From positions 372,001-436,000 of the forward strand of contig NC_019791.1 in assembly GCF_000317795.1 (NCBI RefSeq): a DNA stretch of 64,000 nucleotides, read 5' to 3'. Under the pieces are notes generated by a model, which saw only the letters and a list, made by a program, of their open reading frames with translations, was not told the DNA's origin and did no database searches. The stretch is from Caldisphaera lagunensis DSM 15908 (lineage in GTDB: Archaea > Thermoproteota > Thermoprotei_A > Sulfolobales > Acidilobaceae). Shown piece by piece: positions 29,099-57,203 of the stretch. Both the position numbers and the translations under genes were made by a program. The stretch's first letter is position 1. The number at the start of each line of letters is the position of its first letter.

Positions 29099-29698
29099 AT
29101 GAAAAAGTACTGCATTGATATGTTGCAATATTTATATTTTGCAAACGCGTTAGTCAATGAAAAGAGTGAAGAATGGGATTACATAAAGAAAAAATTAAAT
29201 AATACTATAAATGTTTTTGAAAAATATTGTAACAATGATGCTTTAAATGACCATGAAATTTTAGAAAAGAAAAGTCTAGACTTTCTTGAATCAGTAAAAA
29301 ACGATAATATTTTAAACGCAAATAATAATTTGACTGATATAGAAAATCTTATAAGAAATCAATCGAAAAAATATGTAATAAATGAAACGTTTAAGTTATT
29401 TAGGCTTTTTATATCTCTTACCCTAATTATTACTTCATTAATAATCCTTTTATCTTCTGCAATCAACATATATCAGTGGCTTTTAAATTTATTTTTATTA
29501 GGAATATCTATTGGGCTCGCAGCCTTAGTATCTTATAGCATGATACAGTTACCCTTATTCTTTGTTTCTTTGCTAGAAACAATAAACATTTATTTATCTG
29601 ATAACTTACCACTCCTCTTTAGTCAAATATTAATTACCATTATCAGTTTATTAGGCATCTTTTTAAACAGAAAAATCAACTCATCAAAAACACCATAA
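29099..29698 (+). CDS. Membrane protein, unknown function
   Basis: A 199-aa protein. The first ~100 residues are hydrophilic and helical (DYIKKKLNNTINVFEKYC..., possible coiled coil). The C-terminal half has three or four hydrophobic segments: about 101-123 (LFISLTLIITSLIILLSSAI), 126-150, 150-170 and 172-192. A short basic tail ends the chain. No family recognised. It begins 92 bp after lhr on the same strand and could share its transcript, which does not reveal its role. Confidence 0.55.
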   Translation: MKKYCIDMLQYLYFANALVNEKSEEWDYIKKKLNNTINVFEKYCNNDALNDHEILEKKSLDFLESVKNDNILNANNNLTDIENLIRNQSKKYVINETFKLFRLFISLTLIITSLIILLSSAINIYQWLLNLFLLGISIGLAALVSYSMIQLPLFFVSLLETINIYLSDNLPLLFSQILITIISLLGIFLNRKINSSKTP

Positions 29699-29934
29699 GT
29701 TTATGAAATTATATAACAATTATTTTTATATTAATTTTAGTCACTGAATCTTCATAGATCTAGAGATTATAACTAGAATTAGTCTATCAACGAACAAGTT
29801 AACTTTACGATTTGTGATATTTCTTTTCTTAATGATAACTTAATTACCAATACCAATAACTAAGATTCATCTAAGAGACTTTTATACAACCCCTTGATAA
29901 GAGTTTTATGAATAGCGTATTCTCAATAGGTTTA

Positions 29935-30249
29935 ACTTTATGGGGGTTAAGGGGGCGAAAGTTCCCTCCCGTGAGGGAGAGGATGAATAACCCCTTATAG
30001 AAGGATTTATTATTTCGGGGAGAAGATTATTAGGCCTTGGCTGAAAGCGCTGGGAAATACCCTAGGGACTGGGGATTAAACCTGTGGTGAGCAAACTCTC
30101 CATAACCTCTCTTCCACATGGGGCATAACGAAACGGTTCCGTTCAATAGAGCCTCTACTGTGTGTGTAAGGGGACCGAGGTTGCTCTATGAACCAGGAAA
30201 TCCTCACCGCGAGGTGGGGATGCCCCGCCGTAAGAGCGGGGTAATTCAC
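29935..30249 (+). ncRNA. GC-rich structured element with IS200/IS605-like 3' end
   Basis: The gap 29699-30494 holds no credible protein but contains ~315 bp much richer in G+C than its flanks (30181-30240 is about 62% by count). Helices include TCCCTC/GAGGGA and an enclosing GGGGTTA/TAACCCC near 29942-29995, GGTTC/GAACC plus ATAGAGC/GCTCTAT, and CCTCACC-GCGA-GGTGGGG with a GNRA loop. The last hairpin CCCCGC/GCGGGG runs into TAATTCAC ending at 30249, the form of archaeal IS200/IS605 right ends that also make TnpB guide-RNA scaffolds. No TnpA or TnpB reading frame exists. It could be an orphan guide-RNA-like gene, a MITE-like remnant or another ncRNA. Confidence 0.5.
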
Positions 30250-30494
30250 TTCTTCCTTTCCTAAAAACATAATAAGGCTTTTCAGGGAAAATATTTATTA
30301 TCGCTATCAATACATAAAAAATTTTCTTAAATTAAATATACATCAGCTCCTTGAGGAACTAGGACTAATTCCAATTAATCAAAGCAATTAATTGAATTCC
30401 ATTTAATAATCATCTAAAATGTTTATTTCAATAAATTTGCTAATAAAAATAAATAAGCTCTTTACAATATTAAAAACACAAAGGTAAGAAAGCT

Positions 30495-31418
30495 ATGCCA
30501 GAAAAAGTCTTCGTAGAAACTGGTAGTAGATTGCATGCGGGATTTTATTATGCAGGTAATGAATGGAATGTTAAGTGGGGATCGGCAGGCTTTTATATTA
30601 AAGATCCTTCGTTTATTGCTGAATTTTCTTATGGACAAAATGAATTCATAGGACCTGATTTTATTAAGAAAAAAGTGGAAAGGATATCTGAACTTTTAAA
30701 AATTAATAATTATAGAGTTAAAGTATTGTCTTATATTCCAGAGCATATAGGTTTGGGAAGCGGTACCCAGATAGAGTTGGCAATTATAAATGCATTCAAA
30801 AAATTATTTAATTTAAATGTAAATATAAATGAAATTATAAATGAAATGAATATAGCTAAGTACAGTGGTACCGGTTATTTGCTTTTTTATAATGGTGGAT
30901 TCGTTGCTGATGCTGGAAGACCAGAAAATGGCGAACCTAAAGTCTTGATTCATCATAATATTCCAGAAAAATGGAGATTCGTTTATGTTACTCCAGATTT
31001 AAAGAAGGGATTAGATTATAACCAAGAGGAAAAAATATTGAAAAATCCATGGGAACCTTCAGAGGGGGTAAAAAGACTAATGTCCTATGGTCTTTTAAGA
31101 CTAGCTTCTGGTATTGCTAGAGAAGATATAGAAGATGCATTAGAAGGTTTGAGAATGATACAAGAAGGGACAGGACTTTATTTCTCCAAGACACAAGGTG
31201 GATCGTATAGAGAAGATTTATCAAAAATAGTTTCAGAATTATGGAGGTCTAGGATGATTGTTGCCCAATCAAGCTGGGGACCTACATTATATACAATTTC
31301 ACGCGAAGATGAGGCAGAAGGAGACGCTGATCTTATAAAATCTGTTTTGCATGAACTAAGAATTAATGGAAAAGTATACATAACACAACCAAGAAATATT
31401 GGATTTACAATATATTAA
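30495..31418 (+). CDS. Beta-RFAP synthase family protein (GHMP fold)
   Basis: A 307-aa protein matching beta-ribofuranosylaminobenzene 5'-phosphate synthase, which condenses 4-aminobenzoate with PRPP in archaeal pterin cofactor synthesis. It opens with the family RLHAGFYY segment, and the GHMP-type glycine loop is PEHIGLGSGTQIELA. YSGTGYLLFYNGGFVADAG and the C-terminal AQSSWGPTLYTI are also family-like. In non-methanogenic crenarchaea the product would be a modified tetrahydropterin C1 carrier (inference). It stands alone after the structured RNA element. Confidence 0.8.
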   Translation: MPEKVFVETGSRLHAGFYYAGNEWNVKWGSAGFYIKDPSFIAEFSYGQNEFIGPDFIKKKVERISELLKINNYRVKVLSYIPEHIGLGSGTQIELAIINAFKKLFNLNVNINEIINEMNIAKYSGTGYLLFYNGGFVADAGRPENGEPKVLIHHNIPEKWRFVYVTPDLKKGLDYNQEEKILKNPWEPSEGVKRLMSYGLLRLASGIAREDIEDALEGLRMIQEGTGLYFSKTQGGSYREDLSKIVSELWRSRMIVAQSSWGPTLYTISREDEAEGDADLIKSVLHELRINGKVYITQPRNIGFTIY

Positions 31419-33448: not shown

Positions 33449-34554
33449 TTGGAAAAATCTCCAGAAGAAGGTTTAAAATTCATTAATGAAATAAACAAGA
33501 TTTGTAATAATAAAAGACCATTTTTGGAAAAATTTCCTGAAGGCACGGATGACGCTTATGGCTATTATCCCTTAAAAAGACCTTTAAATGAGTATCTAAA
33601 ATATGGCATTATTGTTCTAGATAAACCTCCAGGTCCAACGAGCCATGAAGTAGTAGCATGGATTAAAAGATTGCTTAATGTAGATAAGGCAGGACACGCA
33701 GGAACCCTAGAGCCTGACTCTTAAGAGAGAGGCGGGGATATCCTAGAGTATCGGGAGTCCTGCCTGTTACATTGGGTCATATGACAAAAATAATTGGCTA
33801 TATAACACATTCGAACAAGACCTACGTTTGTGTGATGCAACTTCATAAAGATGTTGATCAAAATGAATTAAAAAGAGTAATAAATGATTTTATTGGTACT
33901 ATTTATCAAAAGCCTCCAATCAGAAGCCATGTTAAGAGAACTCTTAGAACAAGAAAAATATTTAATATTACCATAAATGAAATAGTAGATAGAAAAGTTC
34001 TTCTAACAATAGAATCTGAAGCAGGTACTTATATGAGAAAATTATGTTGGGATATAGGCCTTATTTTAGGAATAGGAGCTCATATGAGAGAATTAAGAAG
34101 AATAAAAACAGGACCTTTTAATGAAGACTATTATTTAGTAACCATGCAAGATTTAACAGAAGCTGTTTATAGATTTAAAACTGAAGAAAAAGATGATCTA
34201 TTAAGAAAAGTCATTATACCAGGAGAATATAGTGTTTGTGAATTACCTAAAGTATTGGTTAGAGATACAGCAGTAGAAAGCGTAATAAATGGCTCACCAT
34301 TGGCTATACCTGGGATCTCTTATTATAATGAAGGTATTAACAGAGGAGATTTAGTAAGTCTTTTAACATTAAAGGGAGAGCTTGTAGGATTAGCAAAAGC
34401 ATTGATGAACTCTAATGAAATCAAACAAAATGAAAAGGGTCTAGCTTTCCAACCAATTAGAATAGTTATGGAAAGAGGTCTTTATCCAAAAGCATGGAAG
34501 AGCTCTGGAAAATTTAAAAAGAGTGGGGACGGGAACGCCGGGGGTGGGATTTGA
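33449..34554 (+). CDS. cbf5: Pseudouridine synthase Cbf5, intron-containing gene
   Basis: The catalytic subunit of H/ACA guide RNPs, acting with Nop10 (also in this window), Gar1 and L7Ae. The frame is interrupted: exon 1 is 33449-33710 and exon 2 is 33740-34554. Removing 29 nt gives a 358-aa protein with [16 protein letters not shown], the TruB-family catalytic motif with Asp88. Unspliced, it would read LEP and stop at 33724. The TruB domain is followed by a C-terminal PUA domain (about 265-345; [22 protein letters not shown]). The TTG start follows GGTGA by 6 nt. The last 19 bp overlap tRNA-Ser on the other strand. Confidence 0.93.
33711..33739 (+). other. 29-nt bulge-helix-bulge intron in cbf5
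   Basis: The RNA can fold into the archaeal splicing-endonuclease motif. The central 4-bp helix is CCCU (33705-33708) with GGGG (33734-33737). The 3-nt bulges AGA (33709-33711) and AUA (33738-33740) are each cut after the second base. The intron helix GCCU (33712-33715)/AGGC (33730-33733) is extended by CUCU/AGAG around a UAAG loop. An outer AGGA/UCCU exon helix lies at 33700-33703/33741-33744 with one unpaired A. Splicing restores frame and the catalytic GAT codon. Introns at cbf5 are known in Crenarchaeota. Confidence 0.9.
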
Positions 34555-43522: not shown

Positions 43523-43612
43523 AGCCGGGTCGTCTAGCGGCCAAGGATTCGGGGCTCTGGACCTTAAATGGGGAGAACCCCCGAGACCGGGGTTCGAATC
43601 CCCGCCCGGCTA
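43523..43612 (+). tRNA. tRNA-Gln(CTG) with 17-nt intron
   Basis: The acceptor AGCCGGG pairs with CCCGGCT, discriminator A, and CCA is encoded at 43613-43615. The anticodon loop is CTCTGG/C with anticodon CTG. The intron 43561-43577 lies at the canonical 37/38 site. It folds as a strict bulge-helix-bulge: anticodon stem CGGGG/CCCCG, central helix CTCT/GGAG, bulges GGA and AAC, intron helix CC/GG. The mature tRNA is 73 nt. Confidence 0.95.
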
Positions 43613-57099: not shown

Positions 57100-57203
57100 T
57101 GGGGCCGCGGGGATTTGAACCCCGGACCACCAGCGCTCTAGGCATTGGTGGAATAGGGAAATGCTCCCCAGGCTGGCATCCTACCAAGCTAGACGACGGC
57201 CCC
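57100..57203 (-). tRNA. tRNA-Pro(GGG) with 30-nt intron
   Basis: The acceptor GGGGCCG pairs with CGGCCCC, discriminator A. The anticodon stem is CCAGC/GCTGG and the anticodon GGG. The intron 57136-57165 sits at 37/38 and forms a strict bulge-helix-bulge: central helix CTGG/CTAG (one G-U), bulges GGA and AGC, intron helix GCATT/AATGC. The mature tRNA is 74 nt. No encoded CCA. Confidence 0.95.

Follow-up and report, generated by a model that had tools for sequence, protein, structure and literature searches.

A GC-rich island in the chromosome of Caldisphaera lagunensis is probably a non-autonomous miniature of the IS200/IS605 group (SMN1/PATE type) that brings its own omega RNA, to be used by a TnpB acting in trans, and that is now dormant in this genome. 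We established the anatomy of a mobile element, homology to tnpB 3′ ends, covariation of the internal helices, loss of the partner genes, and an empty insertion site in a congener. In the window (the whole stretch of 64,000 nucleotides analyzed), the island has a GC content of 51%, whereas its two flanks have 25% and 23% and the window as a whole 29%. It occupies a 796-bp gap (29699-30494) between an upstream ORF of 199 aa with no assigned function (29099-29698) and a downstream GHMP-kinase-type gene (30495-31418). The preliminary description, which had placed an orphan structured RNA at 29935-30249 in an AT-rich gap of about 800 bp without a TnpA or TnpB gene, was correct on the gap and almost exact in its coordinates; boundaries common to 10 copies set the element limits at 29937-30249, a length of 313 bp immediately 3′ of TTTAAC (29931-29936) and terminating in TTCAC, of which the structured 3′ part makes up 190 nt (Table 1). 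Neither tnpA nor tnpB is present at the locus, as had been stated, although the genome nonetheless contains one broken cognate element.

Table 1. Features of the element and its immediate surroundings (window coordinates)
Feature	Position	Strand	Basis
TTTAAC target site, outside the element	29931..29936	+	Found before the left end in own copies (TTTAAT in one) and, across the order, in most copies and tnpB-linked elements; TTTAA is the TAM of S. islandicus SisTnpB1 (PMC10640517)
Complete miniature element, non-autonomous and of IS200/IS605 type (SMN1/PATE type), 313 bp, without target duplication	29937..30249	+	Same limits in 10 copies of this genome and 4 of G030, with unrelated flanks; S. 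islandicus plasmids carry copies of 320 bp
Left end with nested subterminal hairpins	29937..29999	+	89% identical to the corresponding end (G000:C1:1274377-1274465) of the tnpA/tnpB element
Putative BRE/TATA-like promoter motif GAAGGATTTATTA (GAAACGTTTTTATA in relatives)	30000..30012	+	Position conserved directly after the left end in most copies; promoter function inferred
Omega-RNA-like scaffold, model R1, 51 pairs, 50 intact in this copy	30060..30249	+	Covariation; homology to tnpB 3′ ends; weak match to the Rfam family sot0042, full-length (30045-30242)
Right-end hairpin 1, ATCCTCACC-GCGA-GGTGGGGAT	30200..30221	+	Helix 8 of the 14-copy alignment; two right-end hairpins also in S. islandicus omega RNA (PMC10640517)
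Right-end hairpin 2, GCCCCGCC-GTAA-GAGCGGGGT	30222..30242	+	Helix 9 of the 14-copy alignment; common to tnpB-linked right ends
TTCAC, site of right-end cleavage and 3′ terminus of the element	30245..30249	+	Kept in nearly all copies
Flanking DNA, putative guide of the omega RNA	30250..30269	+	Position by analogy with ISDra2 TnpB (PMC8612924)
Antisense ORF of 64 aa, probably spurious	30076..30270	-	Mechanical ORF listing; runs through conserved hairpins

Rather than the lone orphan RNA first described, the island proved to be one member of a multi-copy non-autonomous transposon family with a left end of its own. The genome (G000; 1.55 Mb, one contig, 99.7% complete) harbors about 11 dispersed and diverged copies, some ten of them in addition to the island. 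Nine aligned copies are 67-88% identical to the island copy and the others are more diverged; all begin after TTTAAC (one after TTTAAT), nearly all terminate in TTCAC, and their flanking sequences are unrelated. Both ends of the island (query 76-164 and 341-404) match a 1.6-kb element with tnpA and tnpB remnants (G000:C1:1272841-1274465), and we therefore classify it as a non-autonomous element of IS200/IS605 type. Membership in this class is further indicated by the lack of inverted terminal repeats and of target duplication, by a fixed left target sequence (TTTAAC) that precedes miniature and full elements alike, and by the combination of multiple copies, no transposase gene, and polymorphic insertion sites. 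Copies consisting only of the ends, with no scaffold between them, were found at about 75 bp in this genome and about 55 bp in G042, so the middle of the element is dispensable for insertion. The former, a left end fused to a right end at G000:C1:1001408 (L016), lies 1.5 kb from the full copy c8. An exact-pattern scan of named genomes returned a single record, Sulfolobales archaeon HS-7.

The identity of the internal sequence was addressed with two covariance models, R1 for the 3′ 190 nt of the element and R2 for the middle without the right-end hairpins. TnpB is the nuclease from which CRISPR Cas12 descends. In its systems the omega RNA (reRNA) is located at the 3′ end of tnpB (PMC8612924, PMC10640517), and R2 matched all ten cognate tnpB 3′ ends as well as the short G042 miniature (E = 1e-10 to 1e-6), with no match at any of nine more distant tnpB loci searched alongside them. 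As expected of an omega RNA scaffold, R1 and R2 thus show homology to the tnpB 3′ end and right end of autonomous relatives, and the TTTAA at the left junction, the target site of the element, coincides with the TAM of SisTnpB1. A permissive Rfam search matched 30045-30242 weakly, though over the full length, to sot0042 (E = 0.0029; 20.2 bits against a gathering score of 88). This is the sole omega RNA family match here and lies below threshold, as did every other hit of that search; no curated crenarchaeal omega RNA family appeared among the Rfam results, and the other copies gave only isolated weak hits to omega RNA. A BRE/TATA-like spacer follows the left end in most copies. When 30250-30269, the candidate guide region, was compared with possible target sites by searching the genome for TTTAAC plus guide, the site itself had 2 mismatches, both in the TTTAAC part, and there was no strong second match beyond the reversed-pattern control: all other hits had 3 mismatches, and the totals were 5 against 4 for the control.

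As a single sequence, the island folds at -115.6 kcal/mol (z = -2.15, with 2 of 100 shuffles as good), which is only mildly unusual, and the case for structure consequently rests on comparison. Among 14 copies, standard pairs fill 91.9% of pair cells as opposed to 43-54% with a slid partner, and there are 29 two-sided changes against 12.7 in shuffles. A larger alignment of 79 sequences, which was fitted to the model and is biased towards structure for that reason, has 90.4% of pair cells paired and 266 two-sided changes against 75.6 in shuffles. Covariation is strong in helices 1-7, which reach as far as about 190 nt from the right end, and helix 1 has been swapped whole, from CCC/GGG to GGG/CCC, between the miniature and tnpB-linked forms. 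The element therefore has the conserved, covarying secondary structure of an omega RNA scaffold, for which the comparative evidence is far stronger than single-sequence folding. Homology to the tnpB 3′ end and covariation together bear out the earlier reading of a TnpB-element-like right end that resembles omega RNA.

What this pairing says about the present locus is a separate matter. The island copy retains 50 of 51 pairs and has no copy-specific change at a paired site; pairs have been lost in copies c8, c9, and c11 (40/47, 41/49, and 37/51 on the same count). Across the seven best copies in the genome, copy-specific changes affect 1.7% of paired and 1.3% of unpaired sites, and they break 10 of 12 pairs against a neutral expectation of 70%, small numbers in both cases. 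Because copy-specific changes are near neutral and the lineage covaries, it is the propagating lineage that is selected and the inserted copies apparently are not. The argument that preserved pairing speaks against simple decay holds in one respect, in that passive decay would not yield compensated pairs, but the pairing reflects selection on the propagating lineage and not on this locus.

Across the order, R1 matches occurred in 28 of 214 genomes. Eight of the 60 loci read overlap a cognate tnpB at its 3′ end, with short matches of 145-149 nt, whereas the remaining 52 do not and have matches of 172-195 nt in all but one case (134 nt); most of these 52 are preceded by a left end some 130 nt upstream. 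The miniature scaffolds have an insert of about 45 nt that is in no tnpB-linked copy read, and in a tree they separate from the tnpB-linked ones, with one short copy (L174) placed beside the tnpB clade. The miniature lineage spans three families. The 266-bp G042 miniature falls inside the tnpB clade and has kept exactly the left end and the tnpB tail, and its placement points to an independent origin that retained the same two parts. Copies of exactly 320 bp following TTTAAC are found on the Sulfolobus islandicus plasmids pARN4 and pHVE14 (R1 scores of 203-205 bits), and one copy is found in Acidianus tailed spindle virus. In that virus, ORF D57 (L207 1354-1527) runs antisense within the element and is unlikely to be a genuine gene. 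At a further locus (L154, G201:C1:371938-374113), a miniature copy begins where a decayed tnpB remnant ends.

The partner genes are in poor condition in the C. lagunensis genome. Its only cognate tnpB has three stops, its only cognate tnpA has lost the first half (the match covers residues 63-139 only), and its other two tnpB genes, at G000:C1:86909 and 318556 (L023, L024), are short, truncated fragments that are nearly identical and belong to a different TnpB group. With the cognate tnpA and tnpB both broken, the copies here are probably dormant and decaying neutrally, and the orphan status ascribed to the island extends from the locus to the genome. Many other copy-bearing genomes are also without an intact cognate TnpB, and some relatives (e.g., G191, with a tnpA of 139 aa and a tnpB of 410 aa) have both genes intact. 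The suggested use of the RNA by a TnpB encoded elsewhere could occur in relatives, but this genome offers it no intact cognate.

Since the ends of IS200/IS605 elements are recognized by TnpA as hairpins, we considered that structure might matter only as single-stranded DNA hairpins for TnpA, with the middle carried along without RNA function. Such elements do move as single strands via TnpA (PMC8612924), and SMN1 moves with the ISC1733 transposase (PMC3718332). We nevertheless judge this rather unlikely, given that the covariation in helices 1-7 extends through the part homologous to the tnpB 3′ end, and that minimal copies made of left and right ends occur, so the middle is unneeded for insertion. 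It is less likely again that the island is a plain relic of an IS605 element, its pairing passively inherited from tnpB-linked elements and never of service to the miniature. The broken tnpA and tnpB, the lost pairs of c8, c9, and c11, and the neutral appearance of copy-specific changes would all suit such a remnant, but the miniatures form a lineage of their own across three families, with many compensatory changes and a common insert that tnpB-linked copies lack, and compensated pairs argue against passive decay.

The preliminary description had also proposed a domesticated, stand-alone host RNA at this locus, and the good preservation of the island copy could be taken that way. Conservation at an orthologous locus was not found, however: the syntenic locus in the congener G004 is empty, no copy shares flanks or insertion sites with the copies fetched from congeners, the genome has about a dozen similar copies, and changes that break pairs are approximately neutral, all of which makes domestication highly improbable. 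The gap itself is about 190 bp in G004, and the element accounts for 313 of the approximately 600 extra bases, with about 290 left over. As for membership in some other, unrelated family of known RNAs (RNase P, SRP, riboswitch, or intron), nothing beyond the presence of structure recommends it, while Rfam at gathering scores reports only tRNAs in the window and the best permissive match by E-value is the haloarchaeal omega RNA sot0042, leaving it a negligible prospect. RNase P and SRP RNA gave no covariance-model match and are ruled out at Rfam sensitivity.

In the cycle that we favor, the two ends of the miniature would be the substrate of a Y1 transposase, TnpA, acting in trans at TTTAAC, and the sequence between them retains a putative TATA-like promoter and a full scaffold of omega-RNA type, akin to the cognate tnpB 3′ end. 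While the element was active, transcription from the TATA-like motif through the right end would yield an RNA whose 3′ end lies in flanking DNA, and a TnpB supplied in trans would load this RNA and cleave the donor site, TTTAA plus flank, once TnpA excision had emptied it. Repair from a copy still holding the element would then copy it back; selection on propagating copies has kept the scaffold lineage. For the miniature we infer transcription, TnpB loading, and donor-site cutting; for tnpB-linked elements, guide loading and RNA-guided cutting are established, and their retention through cutting of the donor site has been proposed or demonstrated (PMC8612924, PMC11870625, PMC10640517). Loading by a known TnpB is not assured because the miniature scaffold differs by the insert of about 45 nt. 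More tentatively, we suggest a gene-less transposon lineage with a separately evolving scaffold, never tnpB-linked in the loci examined, that may borrow both TnpA and TnpB in trans and ride plasmids and viruses, where cutting of the donor site by the borrowed nuclease would drive the spread of the miniature itself, as a gene drive does.

The usual description of miniature IS605 elements is of empty ends relying on a borrowed transposase. Miniatures with a selected guide RNA that borrow TnpB as well would mean that RNA-guided retention can be parasitized, and would give crenarchaeal omega RNA both a comparative structure from 79 sequences and a natural test of the scaffold parts required by TnpB. 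Experimental work exists on SMN1-type elements and on an S. islandicus TnpB, which makes the idea directly testable. We found no report of omega RNA in such miniatures in a literature search that left out key SMN1, TnpB selfish-spread, and OMEGA-nuclease papers.

Several other features of the window were noted in passing. Two ORFs at 33449-34554 resemble one Cbf5-type pseudouridine synthase gene split at ...HAGTLEPDS, and the junction (33680-33790) folds strongly (z = -3.09); this would fit the known archaeal cbf5 mRNA intron. Rfam reports a 104-nt tRNA at 57100-57203 that ARAGORN does not, probably an intron-containing tRNA, and the tRNA at 43523-43612 is also long.

Among the closest known systems is SMN1 of S. 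islandicus, a 320-bp MITE mobilized by ISC1733 (PMC3718332), with SMN2 (PMC3839810) as a related Sulfolobus miniature type. The island shares with SMN1 its length class, IS200/IS605-type ends, multiple copies, and order, and the pARN4 and pHVE14 copies have the published SMN1 length, their identity as SMN1 being judged solely from length, host, and family. It differs in being diverged and in another family of the order, and in the cited papers SMN1 is described only as a MITE and not as an omega RNA carrier. The PATEs of Haloquadratum (PMC3119063) are likewise derived from IS605, with subterminal palindromes and without a transposase, inverted terminal repeats, or target duplication, but some are described as fused ends only, whereas the island keeps a covarying internal scaffold; a PATE-like element of Halanaerobium kept the last 58 nt of tnpB together with the right end (PMC7290912). 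SisTnpB1 of S. islandicus REY15A is active, with TAM TTTAA and two right-end hairpins in its omega RNA (PMC10640517), and the island resembles it in both, in a scaffold that corresponds to the tnpB 3′ end, and in a guide that would come from the right flank. The SisTnpB1 RNA is linked to tnpB, unlike the island, which has no tnpB and whose scaffold is longer than the tnpB-linked scaffolds read. With sot0042 (RF02656), identified as a haloarchaeal omega RNA (PMC12558985), the likeness is the full-length covariance-model match and the difference its low score, 20 bits against the gathering score. What is new relative to these systems is an SMN1/PATE-type miniature with what its sequence indicates to be its own, separately evolving, covarying guide-RNA scaffold.
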